A DNA stretch of 64,000 nucleotides from Rhodococcus globerulus NBRC 14531. GTDB lineage: Bacteria; Actinomycetota; Actinomycetes; Mycobacteriales; Mycobacteriaceae. Both the position numbers and the translations under genes were made by a program. Below the pieces are notes generated by a model. It saw only the letters and a list, made by a program, of their open reading frames with translations. It ran no database searches and was not told the DNA's origin. The stretch is from positions 868,001 through 932,000 of the forward strand of contig NZ_BCWX01000001.1 in the NCBI RefSeq assembly GCF_001894805.1. Reading direction: 5' to 3'. Shown piece by piece: positions 43,611 through 59,731 of the stretch (position 1 is its first letter; each line of letters opens with the position of its first letter).

Positions 43611-43668
43611 CGTGGCTACCTACTCGTCAGCGGAGCGAGGACGAGCTGCCGGGCATCAGGGGTAGCTC
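43611..43668 (-). promoter_or_regulatory. shared two-hairpin leader, copy in front of GAF-ANTAR 1
   Basis: In the direction of the gene: hairpin 1 pairs GAGCTACC (43668-43661) with GGCAGCTC (43650-43643), 7 of 8 pairs, loop CCTGATGCCC. Hairpin 2 pairs CTCGTC (43645-43640) with GACGAG (43628-43623). TAGGTAG with the ribosome site follows and the ATG is 12 nt after hairpin 2. The two hairpins share three bases and so compete. The same layout precedes 43949 and 59592. Confidence 0.75.
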
Positions 43669-43686
43669 TGGAGAGGGCCTGCAGCG

Positions 43687-43709
43687 CTGCCGGGTGTGGA
43701 AGGGCAGAC
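43687..43709 (-). repeat. distal degenerate copy of hairpin 1 upstream of GAF-ANTAR 1
   Basis: On the minus strand CTGCC (43707-43703) and GGCAG (43691-43687) flank a roughly 11-nt loop. It has the length and arm sequence of hairpin 1 but a changed loop, and it lies about 40 nt further from the gene. Confidence 0.5.
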
Positions 43710-43763
43710 TGCCGCCTAGTCGAAAGCTACACCGATCCGGGCCGGTGTGCCATGGAAAGACAT

Positions 43764-43836
43764 CTAGCCATCGACCCGTCAGTGACACCTAGCCATCGAC
43801 CCGGCAGTGACACCTAGCCATCGACCTGGCAGTGGA
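43764..43836 (+). repeat. 25-bp tandem repeat, nearly three copies, in a divergent promoter region
   Basis: Units start at 43764, 43789 and 43814, each beginning CTAGCCATCGACC and ending GCAGTGACAC (the last one is truncated after 23 bp). Units 1 and 2 differ at one base, unit 3 at two or so. It sits midway between the divergent GAF-ANTAR 1 gene and the NRPS operon. Regular spacing of about 2.4 helical turns would suit cooperative binding of a regulator. Confidence 0.9.
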
Positions 43837-43856
43837 GTAACTTTCAATTCAGAGCC

Positions 43857-43882
43857 GTTCCACCCCTGATTCCTGGTGGCGC
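43857..43882 (+). repeat. distal copy of hairpin 1 upstream of the NRPS operon
   Basis: GTTCCACC and GGTGGCGC flank the loop CCTGATTCCT. It matches hairpin 1 in loop and inner stem and lies 34 bp before the proximal copy, in the same orientation. Confidence 0.65.
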
Positions 43883-43890
43883 GGTGCGTG

Positions 43891-43948
43891 GAGCTACCCC
43901 TGATGCCTGGTGGCTCGTCCGATCTGATGGACGAGTAGGCAGGCCCTC
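43891..43948 (+). promoter_or_regulatory. shared two-hairpin leader, copy in front of the NRPS operon
   Basis: Hairpin 1: GAGCTACC (43891-43898) with GGTGGCTC (43909-43916), all 8 pairs counting one T-G wobble, loop CCTGATGCCT. Hairpin 2: CTCGTCC (43914-43920) with GGACGAG (43929-43935), 7 perfect pairs. The Shine-Dalgarno AGGCAGG (43937-43943) starts one base after hairpin 2, and the ATG is at 43949. From hairpin 1 to the ATG it aligns with the GAF-ANTAR 1 leader almost base for base (GACGAGTAGG is shared). Confidence 0.8.
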
Positions 43949-45808
43949 ATGAATCACATTCAGCGTCACCTTCACTCTCATTTACCTGACGAACATTTGC
44001 CTGACGATTCCGTCGTGCGGCAGATCGCGCGAGTGGTGGAATCCGCGCCCCGCAGCTTAGCCGTTTCCTCAGTGGAAGAAGAGCTCGACTACGGCCAACT
44101 ACATTCTCGCGCAATCGCACTCGCCGACGATCTGAAATCTGCCGGGGTGGTTCCTGGTGATCTTGTGGCTCTCTGTGTGCCGCGTTCGACGGACTGTGTC
44201 GTCGGTGCGTTGGGGATCCTCTCGGCGGGTGCCGGGTACGTGGCACTCGATCCGCGGCAGCCTGATGCGCGACTTCGGTTTGCCGTCCAGGATAGTTCTA
44301 CTCGCGCGTTAGTTGCTTTTCCGGACGTTGCTGCGAGGCTCGATTGGGTCGACCCGATCGAGCCGCCGCACACTGTTGGCGCACCGGTCGACGGCGAGGC
44401 TGTCATTGCCGAGAAGTTCAGCACCCGACCGACTGATGCCGCTTACGTCGTCTACACGTCGGGTTCGACCGGTGAGCCGAAAGGCGTTGTTGCCGAGCAC
44501 GGCGGATTGCTCAACCTGATCGACTGGCACAAACGATCATTCGAGCTGACCTCGAATGATCGATGCACGTTGATCGCGAGTCCGGGTTTCGACGCAGCAG
44601 TGTGGGAACTGTGGCCGGCTTTGACGGCGGGCGCGTCGTTGCACGTAGTTCCATCGGGATTGGAAAACGATCCGGTGCGGTTGCGTGATTGGCTGGTCTC
44701 CGAACGCGTGAGCGTGTGCTTTGTGCCCACCCCCCTCGCAGAATCGTTGATTGCCATGACCTGGCCGGAAAATACCGCACTGCGGATTCTGTTGACAGGA
44801 GGCGACGTGTTGTACCACCGTCCGCCGCCTGGCTTGCCGTTCACTCTCGTCAACAATTACGGACTGTCCGAGGCGAGTGTCGTCTCCGTGTCGGGGGTTG
44901 TCGATCCGCTCGCCGGTGACACCCCAGCAGACGCGTTGCCCGCACTCGGTCGCGCGATCGACGGTGTCGACCTCGAGGTAGTCGGTGAGGACGGTTCCCC
45001 GGTCCGTGCCGGCGAGGTCGGAGAATTGGTGATACGGGGTGTATCGGTAGCCCGCGGATATCTCGGTCTGCCGGAGTTGACCGCGCAGAAGTTCTCACAG
45101 CACGGCAACGACCCCGCACAACGCGAGTACCGGACCGGTGATCTGGTTCGGGTCAACAGATTCGGCGATGTCGAGTTCTCCAGCCGACGCGACGATCAGG
45201 TGCAGATCCGAGGTAACCGGGTCGAAGTCGGTGAGATCGCCGGGGTACTCGATCGACACCCGGCGGTGCAGGCCAGCGTGGTGATCGTTCGCGGGGATCG
45301 GCAGAATCCATCTCTGGCTGCGTTTGTCGTTCGGGATGACAAGACGGCGGACCTATCGGGGCTGCAGACGTATCTCTCGGCCCACCTTCCCGATCACATG
45401 TTGCCTCGTTCCATCATCGAACTTGACGAGTTCCCCACCACCGCACACGGAAAAATTGATCGCGCGGCGTTGGAGCGCGCGGCGCACTCGACCATCAGTG
45501 TCGACCGAGGCTCCTTGATCGCGCCTCGAAACGAGGTCGAGGCAGCGCTCGCCGAGATCGTCGCCATACGACTGGATCTGCCGGCGGTGGGGATCGACGA
45601 AAACTTCTTCGTTCTCGGCGGCCATTCGATGTTGGGCGCTCAGTTGATCATTCGGATAGCGGAGATGTACGGCGTCGAAATGACGTTGCTCGAGCTTTTC
45701 GACAATCCCACGGTTCGTGACATGGCCGCCAAGGTGGAACAACTGGTCGTGGAGCAGATATCCGGCATGAGCGATCAGGAGCTTCTCGACGCAGGACGGA
45801 GTGAATGA
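43949..45808 (+). CDS. NRPS adenylation-thiolation didomain protein
   Basis: 619 residues: an adenylation domain (about 20-520) with A3 YTSGSTGEPKG near residue 169, A4 FDAAVWEL, A7 YRTGD, A8 RGNRVEVGEI and A10 GKIDRAAL (catalytic Lys), then a carrier domain with FFVLGGHSM (phosphopantetheine Ser near 560). Aligned by eye to GrsA, the pocket residues read D-A-W-F-L-G-N-V-V, the published Leu(1) code as I remember it. There is no condensation domain, so it loads an amino acid in trans. It is coupled to the following P450 gene by a 4-nt overlap, like NovH with NovI. Confidence 0.92.
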   Translation: MNHIQRHLHSHLPDEHLPDDSVVRQIARVVESAPRSLAVSSVEEELDYGQLHSRAIALADDLKSAGVVPGDLVALCVPRSTDCVVGALGILSAGAGYVALDPRQPDARLRFAVQDSSTRALVAFPDVAARLDWVDPIEPPHTVGAPVDGEAVIAEKFSTRPTDAAYVVYTSGSTGEPKGVVAEHGGLLNLIDWHKRSFELTSNDRCTLIASPGFDAAVWELWPALTAGASLHVVPSGLENDPVRLRDWLVSERVSVCFVPTPLAESLIAMTWPENTALRILLTGGDVLYHRPPPGLPFTLVNNYGLSEASVVSVSGVVDPLAGDTPADALPALGRAIDGVDLEVVGEDGSPVRAGEVGELVIRGVSVARGYLGLPELTAQKFSQHGNDPAQREYRTGDLVRVNRFGDVEFSSRRDDQVQIRGNRVEVGEIAGVLDRHPAVQASVVIVRGDRQNPSLAAFVVRDDKTADLSGLQTYLSAHLPDHMLPRSIIELDEFPTTAHGKIDRAALERAAHSTISVDRGSLIAPRNEVEAALAEIVAIRLDLPAVGIDENFFVLGGHSMLGAQLIIRIAEMYGVEMTLLELFDNPTVRDMAAKVEQLVVEQISGMSDQELLDAGRSE

Positions 45809-47031
45809 TGACCACGGCACCGACCAAGGCTCCCAGTCTGATTCGACTACTCGACCCCGAAGTGCTGGCAGATCCCTACCAGCTCTATCAATCCTTGCGC
45901 GACGAGGCGCCGGTGATGTGGGATCCGTACCTACACGCGTGGGTGGTGACTCGTTACGCGGATGTCGCCGACGTACTCACCCGGTTCAAGGCTGATCGCA
46001 CGCCCACCCCGGCAAAGTTGGCTGAGTTGGGGATGGAGCAATTGGCTCCGGTGGCGCAAGTGATGGTGCGTCAGATGCTGTTCCTCGATCCACCACAACA
46101 CGGTCGGGTTCGCGGATTGGCGGCTGCGGCCTTCACACCGCGCCGCATTGCGGCCCTGCGCGGTCACATCCAGGAGATCACCGATTCGCTGATCGACGCG
46201 GTCATCGACGACGGGGGCATGGAGGTGATGGACACCCTGGCCAACCCGCTGCCCGCTATCGTGACGGCGGAGATGTTGGGAGTGCCCACCGAAGACCATG
46301 AACTGCTGAAGAACTGGTCAAGTGACTTTGCCGAGATGCTCGGCAATTTTCAGCACAATCCCGGCCGCGTTGCCGGTGTCCTGCGCAGCGTGGAGCAGAT
46401 GACGGAGTATTTCCAGGCTGCGGTGCGGAATGAGGCCACGCACCCCACCGACGGTTTGATCGGTGCGCTGTGCGCCGCGGAGATCGACGGAGACAGTCTC
46501 AGCGAAGACGAGATAGTGGCCAACGTCGTGGTGACCATGGTCGGTGGGCAGGAGACAACCACCAATCTGATCGGCAACGGCTTGCTCACGTTGCTCCGTC
46601 ACCGCGATCAGTTCGAGGAATTGATCGACGATCCCTCGGGTCTGAGCGCAGCCATCGAGGAACTGCTGCGTTTCGAGAGCCCGAGCCAACACACGGCACG
46701 GATTGCTCCGGACGCGGTGGAGATTGCCGGACAACCGATTCCGGCAGGCCAAGCGGTGATCGCCGTGATGGGGTCCGCGAATCGGGACCCCTCGAAGTTC
46801 ACCGATCCTGGTCGGCTCGATTTGCATCGCGCACCCAACCGTCACCTCGCATTCGGTTGGGCGGGGCACTTCTGCTTCGGTGCGCCGTTGGCCCGGATGG
46901 AGGCGCAGGCGGCATTCGGGACGGTGCTGGCCCGGTTGCCAGGACTGGAACTGCAACCGGGACCGATCCGGTGGCGCCCCAATTTGGGATTACGTGGCCT
47001 TGCGTCACTGAACGTGCGGTGGTCGTTATGA
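45805..47031 (+). CDS. cytochrome P450, likely acting on a carrier-bound amino acid
   Basis: 408 residues with the I-helix VVTMVGGQETTTNLI, ExxR as EELLR (about 285-288), and the haem loop FGWAGHFCFGAPLAR with the Cys ligand near residue 356. It belongs to the soluble bacterial class. Because it is translationally coupled to an A-T didomain upstream and a C-A-T-TE NRPS downstream, the closest known arrangement is NovH/NovI and relatives, where the P450 beta-hydroxylates the tethered amino acid. No ferredoxin or reductase gene is present in the operon. ATG start at 45805; ATG 45808 is in another frame. Confidence 0.92.
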   Translation: MMTTAPTKAPSLIRLLDPEVLADPYQLYQSLRDEAPVMWDPYLHAWVVTRYADVADVLTRFKADRTPTPAKLAELGMEQLAPVAQVMVRQMLFLDPPQHGRVRGLAAAAFTPRRIAALRGHIQEITDSLIDAVIDDGGMEVMDTLANPLPAIVTAEMLGVPTEDHELLKNWSSDFAEMLGNFQHNPGRVAGVLRSVEQMTEYFQAAVRNEATHPTDGLIGALCAAEIDGDSLSEDEIVANVVVTMVGGQETTTNLIGNGLLTLLRHRDQFEELIDDPSGLSAAIEELLRFESPSQHTARIAPDAVEIAGQPIPAGQAVIAVMGSANRDPSKFTDPGRLDLHRAPNRHLAFGWAGHFCFGAPLARMEAQAAFGTVLARLPGLELQPGPIRWRPNLGLRGLASLNVRWSL

Positions 47032-50000
47032 CCACCCTCGACAACGAGCGCCGGATCGCGGCGCGGAAAGCACTGCTCGAGAATCGATTGCGGGGAGCAC
47101 AAGCGAACGGCGCATCACCTTCCGTGCCGCGCAGGCGGGGGAGTGAGACCGGTGTGCACTACGCGCCGCTGTCGGCCGCACAGTTGCAACTTTGGTACCT
47201 CAATCGGTTGGCGCCGAAAGCGCTTGCGTACAACGAACTTGCCATTGTGACCAAAGACGGGGCTTTCGACGTCGAAGCCCTCAGCTGGGCCTTCAACGAA
47301 TTCATCCGCCGGCATGAAGCGTGGCGCACCACGTTTGCGATGGTGGGAGACGAGCCGCGGCAGGTGATCCATCCGCCGGCGGTGACGGAGCTGCCAGTCT
47401 TGGATGTGAGCCACTTACCGTTCGACGAAGCGGTCGGCGTGGCAACAGACCTTGCCGTCGAGCAGACACGTCAGCCGTACGACACGAGCGCGGGTCCACT
47501 GATCCGGCCGCAGTTGGTGCGTGTGTCCGACTCGTGTCATCGGTTGTACCTCGGACTGCATCACTTGATCTTCGACGGCGTCACGCTGTACCGGATATTT
47601 CTTCCGGAGCTGGTGTCGTTGTACAACTCTCGGATCGCAGGCACTTTGCCTGCGCTTCGTGAGTCGCCCGTTCAACACGGCGACTACTCCTCCTGGGAGC
47701 GGAAGTGGGTGGAGGGCGATGAGGTGGCGAACAGGATCGAATGCTACCGACGGCACTTCGAGGGGGCGCCGGCCTTGGACCTTTCGCTCGACCGGCCGCG
47801 TCCGCCGCGTCAACGGTTTGTCGGGTCTGTTGAGCCGGTTTCGGTTGACGCCGACACGGTGGCGAGATTGCGTTCCTCGGCGGGCCTGCAAGGGGCAACG
47901 CTATTCCATGCCTTGGCCGCGGTGTACGGGTACTGGCTCCAGTGTTACACGGGCAGTAGCGATGTCACGTTCGCAACACCGACAGACCTACGTCAAAGGT
48001 CCGAACTTGAGTCAATGGTGGGGTACTGCCTCACTCCGACCGTGTTGCGCGCGCGGCTCAGCGCAGAGTGGACGTTTGCCGAGGCCGTCGCCGCCATGCG
48101 CACCGAAGTACTGGATGCGCTCGGGCGTGTGGTGCCCTTCGAACGGCTGGTCCGGGGACTGGACGTGCCGCGAGATCCTCGTATGAACCCGCTGTTCCAG
48201 TCGGTCCTGGTTCTCGAACCCCCGGCGGTTCCCGTCGACGACGAGTGGTCGATGCAGCTGATGGAGAACGCCGTCGGCTCCGGAGTTGGGCAGGTGAAGT
48301 TCGATCTGAGCCTCGAGTTGGACGAGCGCGACGACGGTCGGTTGGTGGGCAGAATTAGCTACAACACAGACCTTTTCGATTCAGGAACGGTCGCGTTGAT
48401 GGGGCGTCATCTGCACCTGTTGCTGCGGCGGTGCGCGGAAAACCCCACCGCCGTCCTGAGCGAGCTGTCACTCGCGGATCCCGAAGACGTGACTCGGCAG
48501 CTGAATCTCAATCCTGCCCCTGCCGAGTCGGGACTGATCGGACAAAGTCCTCCGCGAACGATCCACGAGGCAATCGTGAATCGGGCGATCACGTCGCCGA
48601 ATGCACCAGCCGTGACAGTGGGTGCGATCTGCTTGACCTACGGCGAGCTGGTGAACCGGGCCCGTTCGATTGCCGGACGTCTTACCCGCGTGGGTATCGG
48701 TCCGGGAACTGTTGTGGCGGTGTTGATGCCACGCACGATTGATCTCGTGCCGGCGATCCTGGCCGCCTTGATGGTGGGCGCTGCCTATCTGCCGATCGAG
48801 CCTAGGCAACCGGTGCGGCGGGCCCGGTTCATGCTCGAGGACGCGCATGCGTCGGTAGTGCTGACTGCCGAATCCTTGGCGGAGGAATTGACGTGGGTCG
48901 ACTGCCCAGTGGTGACAGTGGGCGGCCAGGAGCCCTCTGATCCAAGCACGGAACGGTTGGTCGACGGTCGGTACACGGGGGCAGTTCGGTCTGACGATTT
49001 GGCCTACATCATCTACACGTCGGGTTCGACAGGAACACCCAAAGGCGTTCAGGTGGAACACCGCAATGTACTGGATCTGATGTCGGCGTTGCCGGTGGCG
49101 CTGGGTCTCGATTCCGGCGACGTCGTGCTTTCGGTGGCCTCATACACGTTCGACATGTCGGTTGGCGACTACTTCGTGACTCTCGGGATCGGGGCCGGTC
49201 TTGTGGTCGCTACCACCGAGGAGATGCACGACCCGCGTCGGCTTGCGCACGTGATCGAGCAGTGCGGCGCCACGCGGATGAGCGCAACCCCCACCAGTTG
49301 GGCAGCGCTGATCGAATCGGGCTGGGCAGGAAGCCCCGGGTTGATCGCGGGTGCGGTTGGTGAACCGCTACCGCAGTCGGTGGCAATGTCGCTGTCCGGT
49401 CTCTGCGCCGGGGTGTGGAACGGGTGGGGCCCAACCGAGACGACAGTGTTTGCCGGCGGCGGATCGGTCTCCCCGGATGAACCGGTGACAGTGGGCCGAC
49501 CGATGCCGGGAACACGTCTGTACGTCACGGATTCGAGTGGGCGGATCCTTCCGATGGGTGTGCCGGGAGAGATTGTGATCGGCGGACCAGGGGTGTCGCG
49601 AGGGTATCTCCACCGCACGGGTGAGACGGCGCAACGGTTCGTACCGGATCCGTGTGTGCCCGGAGAGCGCGCCTACCGCAGCGGTGATCGCGGGCGGTAC
49701 CTCGCGGACGGACGGCTGCGGCACCTCGGGAGACTCGATGGTCAGGTCAAGATCCGCGGGTTCAGGATCGAACTGGGCGAGATCGAAGCGACGCTGAGAG
49801 ATCATCCGGGCGTGGCAACGGTGTCCGTCGACGTCGGCACCGACCACCGCGGACAACCGCAGTTGCTTGCCTACATCGTCCCGGACGAGAATTACTCCCG
49901 GCAGAACCAACCGGATGACGACGCGAATCTGCGCGCGTGGACACGGCAACGACTGCCGGAGTACATGGTGCCGGCCGTGATCGTTCGAGTGCCGGCACTT

Positions 50001-51146
50001 CCCACCTCGGTAAGTGGGAAACTCGATCGCCGGGCCCTGCGCGACCTGGCCGCACGGGTGCAGCGCGAAGGCGCAGATGAACATCGCAGCGCGGCAATCG
50101 CTTCCGAGAGGTCTTCTGCACGGGTGCTCACGCCGACGGAGCAGAGGGTTGCCTCTCTGTGGTCGATGCTGCTCGCCACCGAGGTGTCGGATCTGGATCG
50201 GAACTTCTTCGATCTCGGCGGGCATTCGATTCTGGCCGCGAATCTTGTTGCGCAGATCGAATATCGGATGGGTGCGCAGGTGTCGCTGGTCGATTTCCTC
50301 GACAAGGGAACTACCGTTGCTGGGCTTGCGCGCCTCGTGGACGGTGCGTCGTCGCCGGCCGAATCCCACGCGCCGGCCGTGACGGATCGGCCGCCCGCCT
50401 TCTTCGTGTTTCCCGATCTCCCGAGCGCGATGAGTCTGCGGCATCTGCGGACGCTGTGGGGCGACGAGCAGAGTGTGTATCCGCTGCTGCCGCTTGCCGC
50501 GTCGATGCGCCCGGAACGCTCGGATACCGTCGAGCAGCTCGTGGAGCCCATGATGTCGGCGATGCGGGCCGTTCAACCGGAAGGGCCATATGCATTGGCC
50601 GGCTTCTCGTTCGGCGGGCTTGTGGCGTACGAGCTAGCTCGGCAGTTGGATCGCGATGGGCAGCAGGTCGCATGGCTGGGGATACTTGACACTCCGACGC
50701 CGGAAACCGCAGGGCGAGTGATGAAGCGATGGAAGTCGTCGTCGGGACGACTCGAGCGGCTGCGCCAGCCCGGCAGGATCAAGCTGGTGACCGAATATGC
50801 CCGCAACCTCAGATGGTCGGGCCGGGAGAAACTGATTGCCGCGGGAGTCATTCGGCGTTCGGCGACGGAGGATTTCGATCTCCGGGGTGTCTGGGACATC
50901 ATGGCGCGCTACGAACAGCGCGGGCACAGCGTGCCACTCGAACTATTTGTCACGTCGACGACGGCGGCGGAAGTGCGAACACCGATTCTCGGGTGGGATA
51001 CCTTCCACGAAGGTCGGGTGCGCACGCACTTTCTGTGCGGAAGCCACGACTCGATTCTCGACAGCCCACAAATCGAAGAACTGGCAGAGATCATGCTGGC
51101 AGGTCTTCACGATGCTCTTCATGAGACAAGGGTGGACCTACCGTGA
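47028..51146 (+). CDS. non-ribosomal peptide synthetase, C-A-T-TE
   Basis: 1372 residues. Condensation domain about 40-480 with active HHLIFDG (near 178-184); adenylation domain about 510-1010 with A3 YTSGSTGTPKG (near 663), A4 FDMSVGDYF and GPTETTVF; carrier domain with FFDLGGHSI (Ser near 1067); thioesterase domain about 1120-1370 with GFSFGG (nucleophile Ser near 1194) and a later GSHDS His region. The pocket residues, by eye D-M-G-S-G-V-G-V-F, match no code I can recall. It would join the amino acid from the A-T protein to its own and release a dipeptide or a product made from it. The frame opens far upstream; ATG 47028 overlaps the P450 stop. Confidence 0.93.
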   Translation: MTTLDNERRIAARKALLENRLRGAQANGASPSVPRRRGSETGVHYAPLSAAQLQLWYLNRLAPKALAYNELAIVTKDGAFDVEALSWAFNEFIRRHEAWRTTFAMVGDEPRQVIHPPAVTELPVLDVSHLPFDEAVGVATDLAVEQTRQPYDTSAGPLIRPQLVRVSDSCHRLYLGLHHLIFDGVTLYRIFLPELVSLYNSRIAGTLPALRESPVQHGDYSSWERKWVEGDEVANRIECYRRHFEGAPALDLSLDRPRPPRQRFVGSVEPVSVDADTVARLRSSAGLQGATLFHALAAVYGYWLQCYTGSSDVTFATPTDLRQRSELESMVGYCLTPTVLRARLSAEWTFAEAVAAMRTEVLDALGRVVPFERLVRGLDVPRDPRMNPLFQSVLVLEPPAVPVDDEWSMQLMENAVGSGVGQVKFDLSLELDERDDGRLVGRISYNTDLFDSGTVALMGRHLHLLLRRCAENPTAVLSELSLADPEDVTRQLNLNPAPAESGLIGQSPPRTIHEAIVNRAITSPNAPAVTVGAICLTYGELVNRARSIAGRLTRVGIGPGTVVAVLMPRTIDLVPAILAALMVGAAYLPIEPRQPVRRARFMLEDAHASVVLTAESLAEELTWVDCPVVTVGGQEPSDPSTERLVDGRYTGAVRSDDLAYIIYTSGSTGTPKGVQVEHRNVLDLMSALPVALGLDSGDVVLSVASYTFDMSVGDYFVTLGIGAGLVVATTEEMHDPRRLAHVIEQCGATRMSATPTSWAALIESGWAGSPGLIAGAVGEPLPQSVAMSLSGLCAGVWNGWGPTETTVFAGGGSVSPDEPVTVGRPMPGTRLYVTDSSGRILPMGVPGEIVIGGPGVSRGYLHRTGETAQRFVPDPCVPGERAYRSGDRGRYLADGRLRHLGRLDGQVKIRGFRIELGEIEATLRDHPGVATVSVDVGTDHRGQPQLLAYIVPDENYSRQNQPDDDANLRAWTRQRLPEYMVPAVIVRVPALPTSVSGKLDRRALRDLAARVQREGADEHRSAAIASERSSARVLTPTEQRVASLWSMLLATEVSDLDRNFFDLGGHSILAANLVAQIEYRMGAQVSLVDFLDKGTTVAGLARLVDGASSPAESHAPAVTDRPPAFFVFPDLPSAMSLRHLRTLWGDEQSVYPLLPLAASMRPERSDTVEQLVEPMMSAMRAVQPEGPYALAGFSFGGLVAYELARQLDRDGQQVAWLGILDTPTPETAGRVMKRWKSSSGRLERLRQPGRIKLVTEYARNLRWSGREKLIAAGVIRRSATEDFDLRGVWDIMARYEQRGHSVPLELFVTSTTAAEVRTPILGWDTFHEGRVRTHFLCGSHDSILDSPQIEELAEIMLAGLHDALHETRVDLP

Positions 51147-52180
51147 TGTGGAATCGAATCGTCGCGTGTGCCTGCGCGGTTGTGCTCATGACAGGTTCGA
51201 GTTGTTGTGCGGCGGGTGCGCGAGACGACCTGGCTACTCTGCAGCAGGTCGCGTCCGGAGGTTTCTACGTCGACCCGAATTCGAGTGCTGCGCGCGCGAT
51301 GGTCGACTACCCGGAAACCGCCTCGACCGTTGCCAGATTGGCCGACACACCGCAGGCATTCTGGCTCAGTGCAACATCTCCGCCGTCAGCGGTTGCCAAC
51401 CAGGTGGGGCGCTACGTCGACGGCGCGGCGAGTGCGGGTGCTGTTCCGGTGTTGGTCACCTATGCGATTCCCCAGCGCGACTGCGGTTCCTTCTCTGCCG
51501 GCGGGTACAGCAACGGCGCGGACTACCGGACCTGGTCGGACAATGTCGCGGCCGGAATCGGTAACCGTGAAGCCGTCGTCATCGTAGAACCGGACGCGCT
51601 CACCGACCGATCGTGCCTGTCTTCGGAACAGGTCACGGAACGAATGGATCTACTTCGCTATTCGGTGAATGCTCTTTCTGCGGAACCGAATACGGCGGTG
51701 TACATCGACGGTGGTCATTCTCGATGGCTGGATGCACCCGAGCTGGCGAGTCGACTGGGATCGGCCGGCGTTGATCGAGCCAGGGGGTTCAGTCTCAATG
51801 TCGCCAACTTCTACACGACCGCGGAGCAGGAAGCATACGGCGAGTCCGTATCGGCGCTGACCGGCGGAAAGGGCTACGTTGTCGATACGTCACGCAACGG
51901 CGCCGGACCACCACCCGAAGGGCCGCTCAACTGGTGCAATCCGCCGGATCGCGCATTGGGGTATGCGCCGACAACACAAACCCAGGCAGCGCACGCGGAC
52001 GCGTATTTGTGGGTCAAACATCCCGGCGAATCGGATGGCACGTGCAATCGCGGTGAGCCGCCGTCGAGTGTGTGGTGGAATGCGTATGCTGTTGCGATTG
52101 TGCAGAATTCGGGACGGCGCAGAAATATTCATACGGCACGCCGTGAAATTGCGGCACGCCGTGAAATTGCTCTGGCGTAG
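51143..52180 (+). CDS. secreted glycoside hydrolase family 6 (endoglucanase/cellobiohydrolase)
   Basis: 345 residues with an N-terminal signal peptide (hydrophobic IVACACAVVLMTG, then Cys residues). GH6 signatures are intact: VTYAIPQRDCG, IVEPDAL (general acid Asp near 151), YIDGGHSRW, FSLNVANFY, VVDTSRNGAGPP, NPPDRALG and DAYLWVKHPGESDG. It cleaves beta-1,4-glucan. No cellulose-binding module is present. It is the fourth gene of the NRPS operon, its GTG overlapping the NRPS stop (ATG 51146 is an alternative). The last residues REIAARREIALA come from an 18-bp duplication that overlaps the convergent gene. Confidence 0.92.
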   Translation: MMWNRIVACACAVVLMTGSSCCAAGARDDLATLQQVASGGFYVDPNSSAARAMVDYPETASTVARLADTPQAFWLSATSPPSAVANQVGRYVDGAASAGAVPVLVTYAIPQRDCGSFSAGGYSNGADYRTWSDNVAAGIGNREAVVIVEPDALTDRSCLSSEQVTERMDLLRYSVNALSAEPNTAVYIDGGHSRWLDAPELASRLGSAGVDRARGFSLNVANFYTTAEQEAYGESVSALTGGKGYVVDTSRNGAGPPPEGPLNWCNPPDRALGYAPTTQTQAAHADAYLWVKHPGESDGTCNRGEPPSSVWWNAYAVAIVQNSGRRRNIHTARREIAARREIALA

Positions 52181-53418
52181 GCGCGTCGAACCTGCGGCAG
52201 GACTGTCGATTCGGTATAGGCGCGGGCCCTGGTCCTTCCACCGTCAGCCAAACGTGTGTGGAGGGCCTGATCGTTGAGCAGCAGTTCAAGTGCCCGGGCG
52301 AGTTCGGCGGCATTTCCGGGAGGAACAAGCAGTCCGGAGCGATTGTGGTCGATCACGTCCCGTAGCCCGCCGATGTCGGATGCGACAACCGGGGTTCCCG
52401 CACTCATCGCTTCGATGGCAACAAGTCCTTGTGGTTCCGCCCATCTCGAGGGGACGCAGACCACGCGAGCCCTTCGCATGGCAGCCATGACCTGTTGGTG
52501 CCCGGCGTTGGTGCGAACGATCACTCGGCGTTCGGAGTCGCCGATCATCGATGGGGTATCGGGGCGTTGCATTCCGATCACGACCAGTGGAATCGGCGTG
52601 GGCATGAGCCGGTGCGCGTCCAGCAGTGTCGTGATTCCCTTGTGCGGGCCGATGGCACCGATGAAGAGGAGGTAGTCGGTGGACGGGAGGAAATCGGCTG
52701 TGCCATTCCCCAGCCCCTCGTCACCCTGCCCCTCGTCACCGAGCCCCTCGTCACCGACATCGTCGGGTACAAACGACGGTATTACGGCTACCCGATCCGG
52801 ATTGACTCCCTTCAGACATGATTGCGCCACTGCTGTGCTGATCGGCAGAAAGAGCCCGACGCGATCGAGAAGATGTTGGCTCTCGGCCAGTCCGAGGACA
52901 AGTGGCACGGCCTTCGGTGCCCCGTAGAACTCGCTTGCGCACCGAAGGCACCGCTTGATTCCTGGGCCCGGGCATACGGTGTCGAGCGCGTTCGCGGGTA
53001 CCAGAGTTTTCTTGGCACAGTTCAGTCCGTAGTCGTGGAGAGTGACTACCAGTGCGGTTTGCCGAGGTAAGCGCAAGCGCAGGCACGAGTGCAGGATCCA
53101 TCCGTGGGCGTGCACTACATCGGGTTGTAGCCGATCGACAAGGCGCTGGAGGTGCCTCGTCAGTGCGGGATCGGGTGCGGTGGGATGAAATTGGTGGGTG
53201 GGGTCGGAGGTGAACGGTCGCAGGAATCGCGTCCAACCAGGTAGGTGGTGGACCATGACCAGGCCTTCGAGCGAATGCGAGGCTGTGCCGCCTCGGCTGA
53301 GTGTGGCGACTGTGACTTCGGTTCCGTCGCCGGCCAATCCGGTGGCCAGTGCATGCACGGCACGTTCGAGTCCCCCGGCCGCCGGTGGGTAGCTGTCGGA
53401 GACCACGAGGACCTTCAC
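52129..53418 (-). CDS. GT4 family glycosyltransferase, last gene of polysaccharide operon
   Basis: 429 residues, GT-B fold: KVLVVSDSYPPAAGGLERAVHALA at the start, DVVHAHGWILHSCLRL, the donor-site LLFIGAIGPHKGITTLLDAH, and PSRWAEPQGLVAIEAMSAGTPVVASDIGGLRDV near the C-terminus. GTG 53418 is chosen because of the Rossmann start and an AAGGGGG ribosome site. A 15-bp repeat (about 52712-52757) writes GDEGLGDEGQGDEGL in the linker between the domains. Acceptor and sugar are unknown. It converges with the GH6 gene and overlaps it by 52 bp. Confidence 0.9.
   Translation of the reverse strand: MKVLVVSDSYPPAAGGLERAVHALATGLAGDGTEVTVATLSRGGTASHSLEGLVMVHHLPGWTRFLRPFTSDPTHQFHPTAPDPALTRHLQRLVDRLQPDVVHAHGWILHSCLRLRLPRQTALVVTLHDYGLNCAKKTLVPANALDTVCPGPGIKRCLRCASEFYGAPKAVPLVLGLAESQHLLDRVGLFLPISTAVAQSCLKGVNPDRVAVIPSFVPDDVGDEGLGDEGQGDEGLGNGTADFLPSTDYLLFIGAIGPHKGITTLLDAHRLMPTPIPLVVIGMQRPDTPSMIGDSERRVIVRTNAGHQQVMAAMRRARVVCVPSRWAEPQGLVAIEAMSAGTPVVASDIGGLRDVIDHNRSGLLVPPGNAAELARALELLLNDQALHTRLADGGRTRARAYTESTVLPQVRRAYARAISRRAAISRRAV
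52134..52169. repeat. perfect 18-bp tandem duplication within overlapping 3' ends
   Basis: The unit CGGCACGCCGTGAAATTG occurs twice at 52134-52151 and 52152-52169. It is in frame for both convergent genes and writes RREIA-type repeats in the GH6 protein and AISRR repeats in the glycosyltransferase. Confidence 0.95.
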
Positions 53419-53431
53419 CGGCGAACCCCCT

Positions 53432-54742
53432 TCACCGAAGAACCCTCTGCTGTGCGGGCACGATGATGTAACGCCACCGCGCCAACGCCCAGAGTGCGCC
53501 GAGGCTCTGCGCTGCGAGCCAGCTGATTCCGACAGCAACAATCCCCATGGAGGGCAACAGGATCCAGGAGAGCGCCAGGCACATCAGCAGCATCGACACG
53601 TTGAGCGTCATTGCCTCGCGCAGCCTGCCGACTGCGCGCAGAACCGCCACCGCGATATTGGTGACGGCGTCCGGGATGGCAGAGAGGGTCAGCACGATCA
53701 GCAGCATTTTCCCGTGGGCACTGTACGACTCGCCGAATACCCGCAAGGCCCAACCCCCGCCGATGAGGTAGACGAGGATCAACGGGCCGAGCAGCGCCGC
53801 GATAATCCGACTGCAGCGCCGTGCGAGAGCCGGGATGTCTTCGGGATCTGTTGCGGTCTCGGCGAACAGCGACATCGCGATGCACGGACTGATCATGAAG
53901 AACACCGCGCCGAGCATCCAGGTCGCATAGAAGTAGGCGCCGTCGGATTCGGACAGTCTGGCGAGCACGATGATCGGCAGTACGAATGACGTGACACTCG
54001 CAGCCACAGTCACGACGTGTTGCCCCAGAAGCGACGCGCTCATGTCCCGGACGTCGGAGACGAGGTGTCCGAACAGTGGCCGCATGCTGTGCTCACCGCG
54101 AATTCGTCTGCACCAGAATGTCGAGAACACTACCGATATCACCGCGGACGCGCTCCAGGCCGTCAGAATCTGGTTGTGAGTGCCATTGATGAGCACGGGA
54201 AGGAACAGCAACGGAATGCGTAAGCCGGTGAACAGCATGTTGCGCGCGAGGAGCAGTCCGCTGCGGCGTAGCGCAACTGCCACGCAGTCGGCCAGCGTGC
54301 CGAGCGCGAAGAATGTGGCTCCCATCGTGAATGCCGCTGCGGCAACGGCGGTGCTCAGCGACGGGAGGGTGTGCAGAACGTATCCCAAGATGAGAACCAC
54401 GACTGCGGACCCGGACACCGCAGTCACGATCACGACTGTCACTGCGGCGGTGAGTATTCGCCGCCAGCGATCAGTCGTGAGCGTGCGCGGTAACCACTCG
54501 ACCATCGCGGTGGCAGCGCCGACGCTCGCGATCAATGCCGTCGCCTGCATGGCGCTGGTGGTGGCCGCCCCGACTCCGATGTCCGCTGTTGATGTCGTGT
54601 GAGCAACAACAAGCCAGAACACGTAGCCCATGAGGGAGGTGAGAACGGTGCTCGCCATCATGTAAGAACTGTTGCGCAGCATCGAGTCTTCGGCTATTCG
54701 GGTCCGCGCGATCTGGGGGAGAGAGCCGAGTGTCACCTTCAT
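53432..54742 (-). CDS. polysaccharide flippase-like membrane protein (Wzx/MOP superfamily)
   Basis: 436 residues with about 12 transmembrane helices spread over the full length, starting at SSYMMASTVLTSLMGYVFWLVVAHT, as in oligosaccharide flippases of the MOP superfamily. It would move lipid-linked sugar units across the membrane. The ATG at 54742 overlaps the upstream stop (ATGA). The frame is open further upstream but that sequence is a shadow of the previous gene. Confidence 0.88.
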   Translation of the reverse strand: MKVTLGSLPQIARTRIAEDSMLRNSSYMMASTVLTSLMGYVFWLVVAHTTSTADIGVGAATTSAMQATALIASVGAATAMVEWLPRTLTTDRWRRILTAAVTVVIVTAVSGSAVVVLILGYVLHTLPSLSTAVAAAAFTMGATFFALGTLADCVAVALRRSGLLLARNMLFTGLRIPLLFLPVLINGTHNQILTAWSASAVISVVFSTFWCRRIRGEHSMRPLFGHLVSDVRDMSASLLGQHVVTVAASVTSFVLPIIVLARLSESDGAYFYATWMLGAVFFMISPCIAMSLFAETATDPEDIPALARRCSRIIAALLGPLILVYLIGGGWALRVFGESYSAHGKMLLIVLTLSAIPDAVTNIAVAVLRAVGRLREAMTLNVSMLLMCLALSWILLPSMGIVAVGISWLAAQSLGALWALARWRYIIVPAQQRVLR

Positions 54743-55680
54743 CAGGGCGCCACGGAGAGATAGAGCACGAGGGATGTCGGTCCGACACCGACGGTGTCGG
54801 GGGTCTGGGCTATCGCGATGTCGATCGCGACGCGGTACCGGCCGGGCTCGTTCGGTGCGAGGAACGACACCGTTCCGACCTGGGCACTGCGGGCATTGGT
54901 GTTGGTGTCGAAGGGCGCGGTCGGTGGTGTCGTGACAAACCGCGGATCGGTCGGTGAGACGCCACCGATGGTTGCGGACACGTCCGGCGGCAGGGTGGGA
55001 AAGAGGAATCCGTAGCTGTACGATGTCCATTCGATGTCGACCGGAGTACCGGGTGCCACTGCGAGTTGGCCAGCGATGGCAGTGTCGGGGCCGGTGAGAA
55101 TCGTGTTGACATACCGTTCGGGCTGCGTTGTCTGCATCGCGAGCGCTCCGATCAACGCGCCGACGCACAGGGCCGTCAACGCGAGCGAGACCAGTGCGGT
55201 TTTCCCGACTCGGCGCCACGGTACGTCGGGGACTGCGCGCGATTCAGGTTTCCGCGGAGACTGCCGGATGCGAATGGCCAACAGGGACAACATCACCGCT
55301 GATACGGCAAAGAGCGCCAGTGCGATGGTTGACGTGGTCAGTTGAAATCCCAATGGTCCAAGTGCCAGAACGGTTTCGAGCAGGATGATGAGGGTGAACA
55401 GGGCTGGAAGAAGTACGCGCAGCGGTTTTTCGAGTCCGTCGAAGCGTGTGTCGGTACTACCGGGTGTCTTGCCGAGGATCAGCGCCGCGGCCGCCCACGC
55501 CGGTATGACGAGGAGTGCGGCCACTGCACACACCCGAAGTTCCACGGGAGCCCGGAGCAGTACCGCGGCGAGAGACACGGCCGCAACCACGGCGGATACC
55601 CTCACTCCGGTAAGGGTATCGGAGGTCAGTACCACGTCCAGGACTTGGCGACTCCGAGTGGCAATGTCAGTGCGTTTCAT
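54742..55680 (-). CDS. membrane protein of unknown function in polysaccharide operon
   Basis: 312 residues. Hydrophobic segments lie at about 28-45, 50-70, 90-110, 115-135 and 160-180; the C-terminal 130 residues are probably outside the membrane (GTPVDIEWTSYSYGFLFPTLPP, VGTVSFLAPNEPGRYRVAIDI), beta-rich in look. I do not recognise the family. Overlaps of 4 nt on both sides bind it to the operon, so a role in export or assembly of the glycan is likely but inferred. Confidence 0.8.
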   Translation of the reverse strand: MKRTDIATRSRQVLDVVLTSDTLTGVRVSAVVAAVSLAAVLLRAPVELRVCAVAALLVIPAWAAAALILGKTPGSTDTRFDGLEKPLRVLLPALFTLIILLETVLALGPLGFQLTTSTIALALFAVSAVMLSLLAIRIRQSPRKPESRAVPDVPWRRVGKTALVSLALTALCVGALIGALAMQTTQPERYVNTILTGPDTAIAGQLAVAPGTPVDIEWTSYSYGFLFPTLPPDVSATIGGVSPTDPRFVTTPPTAPFDTNTNARSAQVGTVSFLAPNEPGRYRVAIDIAIAQTPDTVGVGPTSLVLYLSVAP

Positions 55681-57572
55681 GGCGTTCCTGTCAGATCGGT
55701 CAGTTCGGTGCCGACGCTCGCCGAATCGAGTCGGTAGACCCGGAGATGCTCGGTCGACATGATCAGCGACGCCCATGGCGCGTGGTCGAGTCGGTCGAGG
55801 TACGACGGCGGTGTCGGCAGGCCGGCCAGGGGATCTCCGCTGCCGTAGTTGTCCCCGTTGAAGGGTGGGGAATCCGCCATTCGGGTATCGACGACAAGGT
55901 AGTCGTAGGTTGCCCCGGCCAGGTCGGTAGCGAGCTTCGTATCGGGGTCGGTGTCGGTCTGGGTCAGCTCCCACACCGGAAAGTCGGATGACGGTTCGGA
56001 GACGTAGAGTTCGCCGTACGCCGCCAGTGCCAGCGTTGTGTATCGGTCGGTCACGACGCGCACGCGACCTTCTCTCAGTCGAATGTGTTCGGCCACCGTC
56101 CGAGCTTCGGCGCTCGCGGATCTGGTGTCCGAGCCCCAGAGAAACGGGCCGGGAAAGCGGTACGGATCGTTGAGGCCGGCGCCGACATTACCGATCAGCA
56201 AGACGATCAGGACAGCGAGCGAGATCAGTTTCCGGAACCGGATCACAATGCGTGGTAACCGATCCTGGAATGCGACGACGAGGGCGCACATCACTGCCAC
56301 CCCGACGTAACTGAACGCCCACGAGCGCCTGGCCCCCTCCGCACCCGATGGGGCCAGCACAAACAGAACGGACGGGAAGTAGACGGCCCCGATGGCGATG
56401 AACGCGAGGGTTGCGGACGTGACTTTGCCCCGCACACGCGCGATCACCAACAGGCCCAACGCGAATATCGCTGCGACCGCTGCCGGGGCGGCGGCAGTGA
56501 AGGCTCGTTCCCAGAGTGGTTGGACATTGGCGGCGAGCAGTTCGCGGCCACTCGATTGTGACGTGGCAATGCTGCTCAACTGAGTCACCGAGTTGGCGAG
56601 ATACGGCGAGAGGTAGCTCACGGTCGGTGATGCGACAAAGACAAGCCAGGCGGCGCCGACGGCCGCGGTGCCGCTCAGCAGAACCCACCATGCGTATGGC
56701 CTTTGGTGTGCGCGTACAAACCCGAATGCGGTGACAGTGACGGCGATTGCACCCGAGATCAGGAGCAAGGCGATGGTGGTCAGATGGTGGGTCACGACGC
56801 ATACGGCGCCGCACGTGACCGCGATCGACAGAAAAGCGATTCGACGACGACGATCGTCCGACCGTGCGGCAATCGAGGTCAAAGCCAACGCCCACATGAA
56901 GAATGTGATGGCAACACCCTCGTACGCGAATTGAGTGTCGAAATAGATGGCAGACGGATTGAGGGCGTAGATCAGCGCTGCCACGGCACCGGCACGGGCG
57001 GAGCGCAGTAGCGACGTTCCAAGGACGTACGCACCGAGAATTGTCATCACGTGGGTGACGACCATCAACACTTCGCCGGCGGACCAGGCCGAAAGTCCGG
57101 TCAGCTGAGCGATAGAGGCGGACAGGGCTGACGTACCCGGGAAGTATTCGACGATCGGGATGATCGAATTGGGTGGGAACAGTTGGCCGCTCGACATGAC
57201 GTCGACGGATTCACGCCAGTGCGCATACTCGTCGTGATACGACGGACCGAAAGGGTTTCGGAGATACTTCGGGACTGCCGTGAAGAGTCCGAGCAACGCT
57301 ATCGCGCCGATGCGCTGATTGACTGTTGTCCCGAAAGCCGCCAGTTTGGCTGCCAGCGGAATAACCCCGAGCAGCATACCGACCCAGAAGGTTGCGTAGT
57401 AGACATTCGGCGGTGAACCGTCGGACGACATCCGGTACGACACACCGATCAGGAGTATTCCGAGTGCAAGGAGGACGCCTGTCGATGTCCACGACCGCAG
57501 CGCCGAGCGTGAAGTGTCGGAGAACCGATGCCGCGGAGCCTGTTCGGCATCGACCGGGGCGAGTGCGATCAT
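55677..57572 (-). CDS. large polytopic membrane protein, polymerase or GT-C like
   Basis: 631 residues with 12 or more predicted helices up to about residue 450, an early loop with YLRNPFGPSYHDEYAHWRESVDVM (acidic DE residues after the first helices, as in GT-C enzymes), and a C-terminal domain of about 170 residues outside the membrane (VRVVTDRYTTLALAAYGELYVSEP, YDYLVVDTRMAD). It may be the polymerase or a lipid-linked-sugar transferase of the pathway. ATG 57572 with a 4-nt overlap on the upstream gene. Confidence 0.8.
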   Translation of the reverse strand: MIALAPVDAEQAPRHRFSDTSRSALRSWTSTGVLLALGILLIGVSYRMSSDGSPPNVYYATFWVGMLLGVIPLAAKLAAFGTTVNQRIGAIALLGLFTAVPKYLRNPFGPSYHDEYAHWRESVDVMSSGQLFPPNSIIPIVEYFPGTSALSASIAQLTGLSAWSAGEVLMVVTHVMTILGAYVLGTSLLRSARAGAVAALIYALNPSAIYFDTQFAYEGVAITFFMWALALTSIAARSDDRRRRIAFLSIAVTCGAVCVVTHHLTTIALLLISGAIAVTVTAFGFVRAHQRPYAWWVLLSGTAAVGAAWLVFVASPTVSYLSPYLANSVTQLSSIATSQSSGRELLAANVQPLWERAFTAAAPAAVAAIFALGLLVIARVRGKVTSATLAFIAIGAVYFPSVLFVLAPSGAEGARRSWAFSYVGVAVMCALVVAFQDRLPRIVIRFRKLISLAVLIVLLIGNVGAGLNDPYRFPGPFLWGSDTRSASAEARTVAEHIRLREGRVRVVTDRYTTLALAAYGELYVSEPSSDFPVWELTQTDTDPDTKLATDLAGATYDYLVVDTRMADSPPFNGDNYGSGDPLAGLPTPPSYLDRLDHAPWASLIMSTEHLRVYRLDSASVGTELTDLTGTP

Positions 57573-58738
57573 GATTGCGCCAACCGTTCGATCGCACGCA
57601 GGGTGGTCGACCACGACGTGTGGTCGGTGAATCGTCGATGGCGGTCCGGCGGAATCGACATCAAGGTACGACGGAGTGCGTCGACGTTGTCGGGTTCGAC
57701 CAGATGGGCGCCTTCGTAGGTGCGAGTTGCTTCGACCAGTCCGCCCACCGCGTAGAGCACGACGTGTAGTCCGGAGTGCATTGCGATCTGCAGCGGACCG
57801 CTTGCCGACGCGCGCCGATAGGGAAGCACCACTACGTCTGTATCGCGGAAGAATTGGCCTGCCTCGGCGTCGCTGACGTAGCGATTCACGAAGGTAATGC
57901 GCCGACGGTGTGGACTGGCGGATATCAGTGCTGCCGGAGTCTGCCAGTTCTCCCAGGTTTCACCCACGATCGTGAGATGAAACTGTGCGGCCTGCTCGGC
58001 GCTGAGTTTGTTGAAGGCCACCAGGAGATCGTCGAGCCCTTTGTACGGTCTGATGAGGCCGAAAAAGAGCAGTCGGGTTGGCCCACTGCGGGAATCGTGA
58101 GAAGCCGGGGAATCGGCGGGGGAATCGGCGATGTGTGTGTACGGTCCGTGGGGTGCTGTTTCGATGTCGAGCCGGTCGAACGGACGCGAGCCGAATGTTC
58201 TGCGCAGTAACTCTAAATCATGGTTGTTGTGGACGAGCGCGCCGTGGGCGAGCGACAGCAGAAGGGGCATACCGCGTCGACAGTACATATCGACGCCCAA
58301 GACCAAAGCCTCACTGGTGTCCTGAGTCTCGTGAAACTCGACAACCACACGAATGCCGAGTACCCGGGCAAACAACGCGACGAGGATATAGGTGTGGAGT
58401 GTCGCGGCAGTCCACCATTGCAGTACAACCAGATTCGGCTTTGTCGAGCGAAGCCGAGCCAGGGCCCCCAATAGGCCGGGGAACCAGTACCAGTCGAGTT
58501 CGCCGATGCGAGTGACATTGTTGCCGTAGCGAAGCGCGGTGCCGGTATTCGGTGAGCGACGAGTAGTCGGATACAACCGCCGCGGGATGACCCGGCGTAG
58601 CAGGAGCACCGACACATCGTGTTCGCGACTCAGTTCGTTCGCAAGTGTGCAGGTGTAGGCCGACAACCCACTGAGGAAGTGAAAGCCCGGACCCACGAGC
58701 ACTACCTCGAGTCTGCCTTCCGCGTTCACGCTGCTCAC
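57569..58738 (-). CDS. GT4 family glycosyltransferase
   Basis: 389 residues: LEVVLVGPGFHFLSGLSAYTCTLANELS at the start, VVVEFHETQDTSEAL, donor-site LLFFGLIRPYKGLDDLLVAFNKL, and VVLPYRRASASGPLQIAMHSGLHVV, where the usual second Glu motif is replaced by ASGPLQIAM as in some GT4 subgroups. GTG 58738 overlaps the upstream stop by 4 nt. Sugar and acceptor unknown. Confidence 0.88.
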   Translation of the reverse strand: MSSVNAEGRLEVVLVGPGFHFLSGLSAYTCTLANELSREHDVSVLLLRRVIPRRLYPTTRRSPNTGTALRYGNNVTRIGELDWYWFPGLLGALARLRSTKPNLVVLQWWTAATLHTYILVALFARVLGIRVVVEFHETQDTSEALVLGVDMYCRRGMPLLLSLAHGALVHNNHDLELLRRTFGSRPFDRLDIETAPHGPYTHIADSPADSPASHDSRSGPTRLLFFGLIRPYKGLDDLLVAFNKLSAEQAAQFHLTIVGETWENWQTPAALISASPHRRRITFVNRYVSDAEAGQFFRDTDVVVLPYRRASASGPLQIAMHSGLHVVLYAVGGLVEATRTYEGAHLVEPDNVDALRRTLMSIPPDRHRRFTDHTSWSTTLRAIERLAQS

Positions 58739-59592
58739 CCCGCAGCCTTCGGCAGATGCAGAACCGTGGGCGGACTGTTGGGTGGATTGTTCGGCGGATC
58801 ACCCTGTGCTGCTGCGACTACCGAGATCCGGTGCACAATGGGTGCGATGTCCGGTCGGTGCTGCACCCGAATCCGAGTCAGGACGGCAAGGCAGGCAACA
58901 CCATCTCGCCAGGTGATTTTCTTGCCCTCCGACACCGATCGTCCGTGATACGACACAGGCACCTCGAGAGGTCGGATACCGCACCGCAGTAATCGCGCTG
59001 TCATTTCCGTGTCGAGGCCGAAACCGCCCTCCGTCAATGTCAGGGAGCGCAGGTGATCGGTCGGGATGAGTTTGAGGCAAGTGTGCATGTCCGTCAGGCA
59101 AGCGTCGTACAACACGTTGGCAAACAAGGTTGTTGCGCGGCCTCCTATGGCAAACCGAAATGACGGAAAGCAGGCGTTGACTCCGCGGACCCTCGCGCCG
59201 AACACGTGATCGGAGTATCCGGCCAGTACCGGTGCGATCAGCGACGGAATATCGCTCGGCAGATATTCGAGATCTGCGTCGAGGATGACGAGGTGACTTC
59301 CGGCGGCGTAGTCCAACCCGGTTCGAATTGCCGCGCCCTTGCCGCGATTGACCGGATGGGTCACTACGACAATGTCTTTCGATGTCCGAGCGTCTGATCG
59401 CTGAGCTTCGAGAATTCGTGCGGTGCGATCGGTGCTGCCGTCGTCGACGACTATCAGTTCCATCCGGCACGGATAATGTACGGCGAATACGCGGTCTATC
59501 GCTGCCTTCAGCGTGCGTTCCTCGTTGAAGACCGGCATCAGTATCGAGAGGCTGACCAGCGGCTGGCTGTGCGGAAACGAAGGCTGATTCAT
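58735..59592 (-). CDS. GT2 family glycosyltransferase (polyprenol-phosphate sugar synthase-like), first gene of operon
   Basis: 285 residues, GT-A fold: SILMPVFNEERTLKAAIDRVF, VVDDGSTDRTARIL (nucleotide Asp), NRGKGAAIRTGLDYA, LDADLEYLPSDIP (metal Asp-x-Asp), and EVPVSYHGRSVSEGKKITWRDG, which resembles dolichol-phosphate mannosyl/glucosyl transferases. It lacks membrane helices. The ATG at 59592 is chosen over GTG 59604 because AGGTGG (59606-59601) then has proper spacing and because it fits the shared leader. It heads the six-gene polysaccharide operon. Confidence 0.9.
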   Translation of the reverse strand: MNQPSFPHSQPLVSLSILMPVFNEERTLKAAIDRVFAVHYPCRMELIVVDDGSTDRTARILEAQRSDARTSKDIVVVTHPVNRGKGAAIRTGLDYAAGSHLVILDADLEYLPSDIPSLIAPVLAGYSDHVFGARVRGVNACFPSFRFAIGGRATTLFANVLYDACLTDMHTCLKLIPTDHLRSLTLTEGGFGLDTEMTARLLRCGIRPLEVPVSYHGRSVSEGKKITWRDGVACLAVLTRIRVQHRPDIAPIVHRISVVAAAQGDPPNNPPNSPPTVLHLPKAAG

Positions 59593-59655
59593 TGCGGGTG
59601 CCACCTGACTCGTCCGTGCGGGGAGGGACGAGCTACCGGGAATCAGGGGCAGCTC
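59593..59655 (-). promoter_or_regulatory. shared two-hairpin leader, copy in front of the polysaccharide operon
   Basis: Hairpin 1: GAGCTGCC (59655-59648) with GGTAGCTC (59637-59630), all 8 pairs counting one G-T wobble, loop CCTGATTCCC. Hairpin 2: CTCGTCC (59632-59626) with GGACGAG (59615-59609), 7 perfect pairs. The AGGTGG ribosome site and ATG 59592 follow. Arm changes relative to the other two copies keep the pairing. Confidence 0.78.
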
Positions 59656-59670
59656 CGAATATCGGTGCGG

Positions 59671-59695
59671 AAGTACCAGGGAACAAGGGCATGCC
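59671..59695 (-). repeat. degenerate distal copy of hairpin 1 upstream of the polysaccharide operon
   Basis: On the minus strand it reads GCATGCCCTTGTTCCC then TGGTACTT, matching hairpin 1 in length and spacing but with a weakened stem (about four pairs). It lies about 40 nt upstream of the proximal copy, as at the other two sites. Confidence 0.4.
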
Positions 59696-59731
59696 GACTA
59701 ATTCGAACTTACTCCTCGGCGACACTCCACG

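Follow-up and report, generated by a model that had tools for sequence, protein, structure and literature searches.

Why do a regulator gene, a nonribosomal peptide synthetase (NRPS) operon and a glycan operon of Rhodococcus globerulus NBRC 14531 all begin with the same leader, and what reads that leader? We addressed this question in a 64,000-nucleotide stretch of the genome (contig NZ_BCWX01000001.1, positions 868,001 to 932,000), which we call the window and in which positions are given unless another locus is named. Two hairpins with similar loops stand before the three operons, and the cluster encodes two ANTAR proteins, one of them behind a leader; for this reason we read the leader as an ANTAR target. 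The conserved two-hairpin leader is probably where the ANTAR proteins of the cluster bind, and would tie the regulator, NRPS and glycan operons to a signal sensed by a GAF domain. The leaders are best read as a new class of ANTAR-linked leader RNA, set apart by its loops.

Anatomy of the leaders

Read in gene direction, each leader consists of a TANNNT box, three hairpins that we number 0, 1 and 2, a weak Shine-Dalgarno sequence and the start codon. Leader A precedes the gene of a GAF-ANTAR protein, leader B the NRPS operon and leader C the glycan operon. Hairpin 1 has the build GAGCTRCC / CCTGATKCCY / GGYRGCTC in all three. In leader A (43643..43668, minus strand) its 8-bp arms enclose the 10-nt loop CCTGATGCCC, with an A-C at pair 6; in leader B it occupies 43891..43916 (plus strand), and in leader C (59630..59655, minus strand) the arms are GAGCTGCC and GGTAGCTC. 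Within the window, pair 5 is T-A or T-G and pair 6 is A-T, G-T or A-C. Hairpin 2 is built from CTCGTC(C), a loop of 8-11 nt and (G)GACGAG, and is followed by the start codon. It has no mismatch over 6 bp in leader A (CTCGTC/GACGAG; 43623..43645, minus strand) and over 7 bp in leaders B (CTCGTCC/GGACGAG; 43914..43935, plus strand) and C (59609..59632, minus strand). The bases CTC are common to hairpins 1 and 2. A first-pass annotation of the window had described three leaders of this build at these places, with their start codons, a perfect hairpin 2 and three shared bases, and the sequence agrees on each point.

That description left out part of the unit, to which the TANNNT box and a further hairpin also belong. 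Hairpin 0 lies upstream of hairpin 1 in every window leader, has a similar loop and is separated from hairpin 1 by a linker of 11-20 nt. It is clearest in leader B (43854..43885, plus strand), where CCACC-CCTGATTCCT-GGTGG (43860-43879) has the loop type of hairpin 1 and the predicted fold adds an outer stem GCCGT/GCGGT. Hairpin 0 is more diverged in leader A (43681..43712, minus strand; inner stem CTGCC/GGCAG at 43687-43707, enclosed by an outer stem when folded) and in leader C (59674..59691, minus strand; TGCC-CTTGTTCCCT-GGTA). An outer stem around hairpin 0 appears in several single-sequence folds.

The box reads TAGCTT in leader A (43724..43729, minus strand), TAACTT in leader B (43838..43843, plus strand) and TAAGTT in leader C (59706..59711, minus strand), and the GTA..TT of GTANNTT is invariant in 15/15 leaders of the wider set described below. 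TANNNT is the consensus of the -10 element, and the box may be a promoter element of this kind. Because a consensus scan found no complete sigma-70-type promoter at 43500-44100 or at L147 10100-10600, it is the conservation of the box that points to this role. Three 25-bp tandem repeats (GACAYCTAGCCATCGACCYGKCAGT; 43759..43833, plus strand) stop just 5' of the box of leader B; they are shorter in the genus genome G010, and there are none in the stretch of G003 that was read.

Allowing up to 3 mismatches, ACCCCTGATKCCYGGY occurs 8 times in the window, where 3.85 occurrences are expected. All 3 exact matches and the sole match with 1 mismatch lie inside leaders, and the remaining four carry 2-3 mismatches. 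Run over the 6.73 Mb genome at the thresholds used, models built from the leaders recover these three places and no others. A pattern search that allowed 2 mismatches in this genome was too loose for use (1162 matches vs 569 with the reversed pattern).

Distribution and linkage to ANTAR genes

We built three models. R1, made from the 3 window leaders, was searched in 28 genomes of the genus. R2, made from an alignment of 9 core leaders (three each from this genome, G010 and G003), was searched in 398 non-core genomes of the family. R3, made from 15 leaders of 8 genomes, was searched in 401 genomes of the family and 397 of the order; the threshold for R2 and R3 was E<=0.01. The GAF-ANTAR protein behind leader A is referred to as ANTAR1, and its homologues were called strong at E<=1e-30.

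R1 gave exactly three matches in each of 3/28 genus genomes, at the same three genes, which bears out the idea of the first-pass annotation that the leaders form one set. R2 matched 5/398 genomes of two other genera, at one place each (G139, G247, G220 and G211 of genus g10, and G209 of genus g6), and all five carry an ANTAR1 homologue on the contig of the match, at a distance of 0.6-10.3 kb. Strong homologues anywhere in the genome are found in 19 of the 398, among them 4 of the 5 R2-positive genomes (hypergeometric P 1.8e-5, treating related genomes as independent); in the fifth, G247, the homologue has E 1.2e-25. R3 added G154, which is outside its 15 sequences and has an ANTAR gene 10 kb away. 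An ANTAR1 homologue is thereby found within ~10 kb of the leader in all 6 credible genomes outside the genus. In total, R3 matched 10/401 family genomes, 9 of which have an ANTAR gene in the cluster; leaders are confined to a single cluster in each genome.

Matches judged to be chance were an R1 match in G080 (E 5e-4) and an R3 match in G401 (E 9e-4) with no ANTAR gene in the 10 kb stretch; over the 397 order genomes, R3 gave 4 matches besides G000, at chance level (E 0.002-0.008). An exact-pattern scan of wider genome contigs, a collection that may omit the window's near relatives, returned 24 stretches, none actinobacterial by title and taken as chance, and an ANTAR1 protein scan of these contigs confirmed none of 20 pattern stretches.

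The gene content behind the leaders was compared between genomes. As in the window, one of the two leaders of G209 precedes an operon for A-PCP, P450, C-A-PCP-TE and GH6, next to which lies an ANTAR gene in divergent orientation; the other leader lies on another ANTAR gene, followed by glycosyltransferases. The leader of G139 stands before a UDP-sugar dehydrogenase gene, after which come GH18, a SIS/GATase protein, GT2, MspA and a convergent GAF-ANTAR gene. An epimerase gene follows the leader in G220, and a similar dehydrogenase start, judged by eye, in G247, G211 and G154. Genes were scanned with Pfam in three clusters (window, G139 and G209), where some open reading frames have no Pfam match; ANTAR is the only regulator type common to all three. 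The first-pass annotation had rightly placed a GAF-ANTAR gene behind a leader, and had missed both the connection between leaders and ANTAR genes and the second ANTAR gene of the window (ANTAR2; 60821..61642, minus strand), at the opposite cluster end. ANTAR2 matches Pfam ANTAR only at E<=0.1, and is 34% identical to ANTAR1 over 188 aa, covering part of the GAF stretch of ANTAR1. The EQAKG motif is invariant in 8/8 aligned ANTAR proteins.

Two genomes of genus g27, G249 and G240, have weak aligned two-hairpin elements that are divergent from ANTAR genes (L168:8823-8906 and L169:5685-5768; loops CCAGATCCC and CCGACCCCC). The weak R3 match in G249 (E 0.017) adjoins its ANTAR gene; G240 has an aligned place at E 0.076, yet nothing at E<=1 in the genome search. 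Both were excluded from every leader count.

Loop class and comparison with known ANTAR targets

ANTAR domains bind tandem hairpins via conserved loop letters, and the published target rule is a six-letter loop with A1 and G4 (PMC3369931, PMC8164766). Several traits of such targets are present here: two tandem stem-loops with similar loops, a linker within the 2-25 nt range, and a linked ANTAR gene in the R3-positive genomes counted above. The leader loops are 9-11 nt long, C-rich and of the form CCNG...CCY, alike in hairpins 0 and 1. Loop position 1 is C in 30/30 and position 4 is G in 28/30, and at several loop letters conservation equals that of the stem arms. G154 (L171:4100-4230) has three hairpins, because hairpin 1 is repeated in tandem ~31 nt after its first copy (GCCACC-CCGGCAGACC-GGTGGC in both).

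The target RNAs of EutV, NasR and AmiR (the eut, nasF and amiE leaders) are likewise 5' leaders in which, as described for nasF and amiE, two hairpins in tandem carry similar conserved loops, and they are served by ANTAR regulators of the same genes. They differ from the leaders here in having A1/G4 hexaloops instead of the CCNG...CCY loops and stems of about 3 bp instead of 4-8 bp; in addition, a T-tailed terminator was absent from both stretches scanned here. The actinobacterial ANTAR RNAs predicted in PMC8164766 share the phylum, the linker range and a frequent overlap with the ribosome site, but their selection needed hexaloops with <=1 point variation, which the leaders here fail. ANTAR1 resembles GAF-ANTAR one-component regulators in the order of its domains, GAF then ANTAR.

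The first-pass annotation knew of no described RNA family with this consensus, and Rfam agrees: Rfam 15 at gathering score gave only four tRNAs in the window, 8 relative loci had no match, and relaxing the cut-off to E<=10 near leaders A and B gave one sub-threshold match, inside the ANTAR gene. The literature covered, which includes accessible parts of PMC3369931, PMC8164766 and PMC7496416 and few subscription papers, holds no report of this motif, of an RNA target of a GAF-ANTAR protein, or of one in a peptide/polysaccharide cluster.

A more specific proposal, which we regard as evenly balanced, is that the leaders represent a new ANTAR recognition class. Paired C-rich CCNG loops would replace the A1/G4 hexaloops, one leader per operon would co-control the peptide synthetase, the glycan machine and the regulator, and the output would depend on the neighbour of hairpin 1, which is the ribosome site in one genus and a second, remote element in another. 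In the main reading, transcription would start just after the TANNNT box, which would place both hairpins in the RNA, and an ANTAR dimer gripping both loops would keep hairpin 1 whole. In this genus a whole hairpin 1 would take the CTC, and the foot of hairpin 2 would open beside the ribosome site; the bound state would then be ON. Where relatives have the leader far from the start codon, the output would probably be antitermination or longer-range pairing. As the regulator gene carries the same leader, the regulator would regulate itself. If this is true, a hexaloop requirement makes searches overlook a class of ANTAR RNAs, and the production of peptide and polysaccharide is coupled by a switch that acts once transcription has begun. 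The GAF-ANTAR proteins here accompany candidate targets on several operons of the same cluster, which makes binding, loop specificity and signal directly testable.

Hairpin 2 and the ribosome site

As first drawn, the leader was a translational switch without a part for ANTAR proteins: hairpin 1 competes with hairpin 2, and the ribosome site is masked either by hairpin 2 or by a long-range helix. We consider this account unlikely. The shared CTC speaks for it, as does hairpin 2 itself, which is contained in the minimum-energy fold of each window leader. Complementarity with the ribosome site was assessed in 11 start-proximal leaders. In G209b, 11 pairs are possible between the 5' arm of hairpin 1 and the ribosome site, and 0/2000 shuffles were as good; the other 10 leaders did not exceed shuffles (the next best, own C, at 0.062), so we rejected sequestration of the ribosome site by hairpin 1 as a general rule and regard the translational switch as unproven.

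Hairpin 2 shows no compensatory change across the 9 genus leaders, has one unpaired position of seven in 4 of them (own_A, G003_A, G010_A and G003_B; the unpaired base of G003_B also breaks hairpin 1) and was not recognisable by eye outside the genus. What genera share is the pair formed by hairpins 0 and 1, rather than hairpins 1 and 2 as first proposed, and a switch of this kind leaves hairpin 0 and the steady ANTAR neighbourhood unexplained. The covarying arms are those of hairpins 0 and 1, and in 4/5 g10 leaders hairpin 1 is ~200-240 nt from the start codon, where there is a second conserved block. The fifth, G220, has the second conserved block without the ATG.

This block (CTTCYCSGTAAGGGGTAYCGC) is kept in 5/5 g10 leaders and stands directly before the ATG in 4; the AGGGG within it is a potential pairing partner of the C-rich loops of the hairpins. 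The loci are L140:8040-8252, L147:10266-10490, L146:4112-4326, L171:4191-4434 and L144:10596-10840.

RNA or DNA

A duplicated double-stranded DNA operator just downstream of a promoter, recognized by a DNA-binding regulator, is an improbable explanation, although it would fit the dyads, whose arms are strongly conserved in hairpin 1, and the TANNNT box close upstream. We examined pairing over the 15 leaders, with 500 shuffles that treat the leaders as unrelated and leave kinship uncorrected. Stem cells pair in 93.2% of cases (hairpin 0 inner stem 94.4%, hairpin 1 92.5%), compared with 91.1% in shuffles, of which 5/500 were equal or higher; in controls with slid partners, pairing falls to 21-49%. 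Cells changed on both sides number 9 vs 2.9 in shuffles (0/500), and the covariation score is 0.267 vs 0.217 (sd 0.019; 0/500). The inner stem of hairpin 0 ranges between CTGCC/GGCAG and CCACC/GGTGG, and CCGCC/GGTGG is an intermediate with a G-U pair. Across leaders, hairpin 1 has U-A, U-G or C-G at pair 5 and A-U, G-U or G-C at pair 2 in 13/15 rows. By eye, at least 4 paired changes are independent. The first-pass annotation had named homologues that lose pairing and keep sequence as the sign of a DNA site; the opposite came out for hairpins 0 and 1.

Cells of hairpins 0 and 1 outside Watson-Crick pairing are also skewed: in gene sense there are 22 G-U cells (7 pairs), 6 A-C cells (3 pairs) and 7 other mismatches, a skew for which a DNA dyad gives no reason. 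The distances from the GG of hairpin 0 to the GG of hairpin 1 are 34, 37-41 and 43 nt and are unrelated to the helical turn. An operator would likewise not account for the loop letters conserved like arms, and no DNA-binding regulator is common to the three scanned clusters. Because the stems change with pairing kept, G-U exceeds A-C and the spacing ignores helical phase, the leader element, judged from these sequences, probably acts as RNA rather than as a DNA operator.

Least probable is a small-molecule riboswitch of two like domains, with a cluster metabolite as ligand and the ANTAR proteins as mere cluster members: it would suit two like hairpins with conserved loop letters before biosynthetic operons, but a stem with a 10-nt loop is by general knowledge small for an aptamer, the constant neighbour is a protein of a type known to bind RNA, and the regulator gene itself is also preceded by a leader.

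Evidence against the ANTAR reading

Several results weigh against the leaders as ANTAR targets. The canonical dual hexaloop (A1/G4) was tried and rejected, with 0/15 leaders containing it and single such hairpins at the expected number (5 vs 4.7). About 4 chance matches are expected in 400 genomes at E<=0.01, so the R2 matches rest on location and not on score alone. Out of 22 genomes with an ANTAR1 homologue (E<=1e-30), 14 have no R3 match at E<=0.01, and a finer R3 search of those 14 again gave none at this threshold; the leader would thus be limited to part of the ANTAR1 family, or have diverged beyond the model. Two weak measures of pairing come closer to shuffles: pairs changed on both sides (4 vs 2.1; 31/500) and further pair types (11 vs 10.9; 336/500). 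The free-fold probability of hairpin 1 pairs is 0.00-0.59.

The ribosome-site results count here too. Besides the complementarity that beats shuffles in 1/11 leaders, forcing the inner pairs of hairpin 1 left more of the ribosome site unpaired in 6/11 leaders (from 0.14 to 0.30 in own A, from 0.24 to 0.53 in own B and from 0.20 to 0.62 in G209b), the same fraction in 2 and less in 3 (from 0.24 to 0.21 in own C); in own A, B and C it also increased the pairing of the start codon. No T-tailed terminator was found at 43500-44100 or L147 10100-10600.

Genes of the cluster

ANTAR1, the predicted leader reader, is a protein of 231 aa encoded behind leader A (42915..43610, minus strand), with Pfam matches to GAF_2, GAF and ANTAR above cut-offs. 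The NRPS operon behind leader B (43949..52180, plus strand) encodes A-PCP (43949-45808), P450 (45805-47031), C-A-PCP-TE (ending at 51146) and GH6 (51143-52180). The glycan operon behind leader C (52129..59593, minus strand) begins with GT2 and continues with further glycosyltransferases and open reading frames without a Pfam match. Convergent to the ANTAR1 gene is a GGDEF-EAL gene with a weak GAF match (41070-42926), a possible link to cyclic-di-GMP signalling. Near the cluster, a 719-aa protein (38880-41039) joins a ThiF domain to a nitroreductase-type match.

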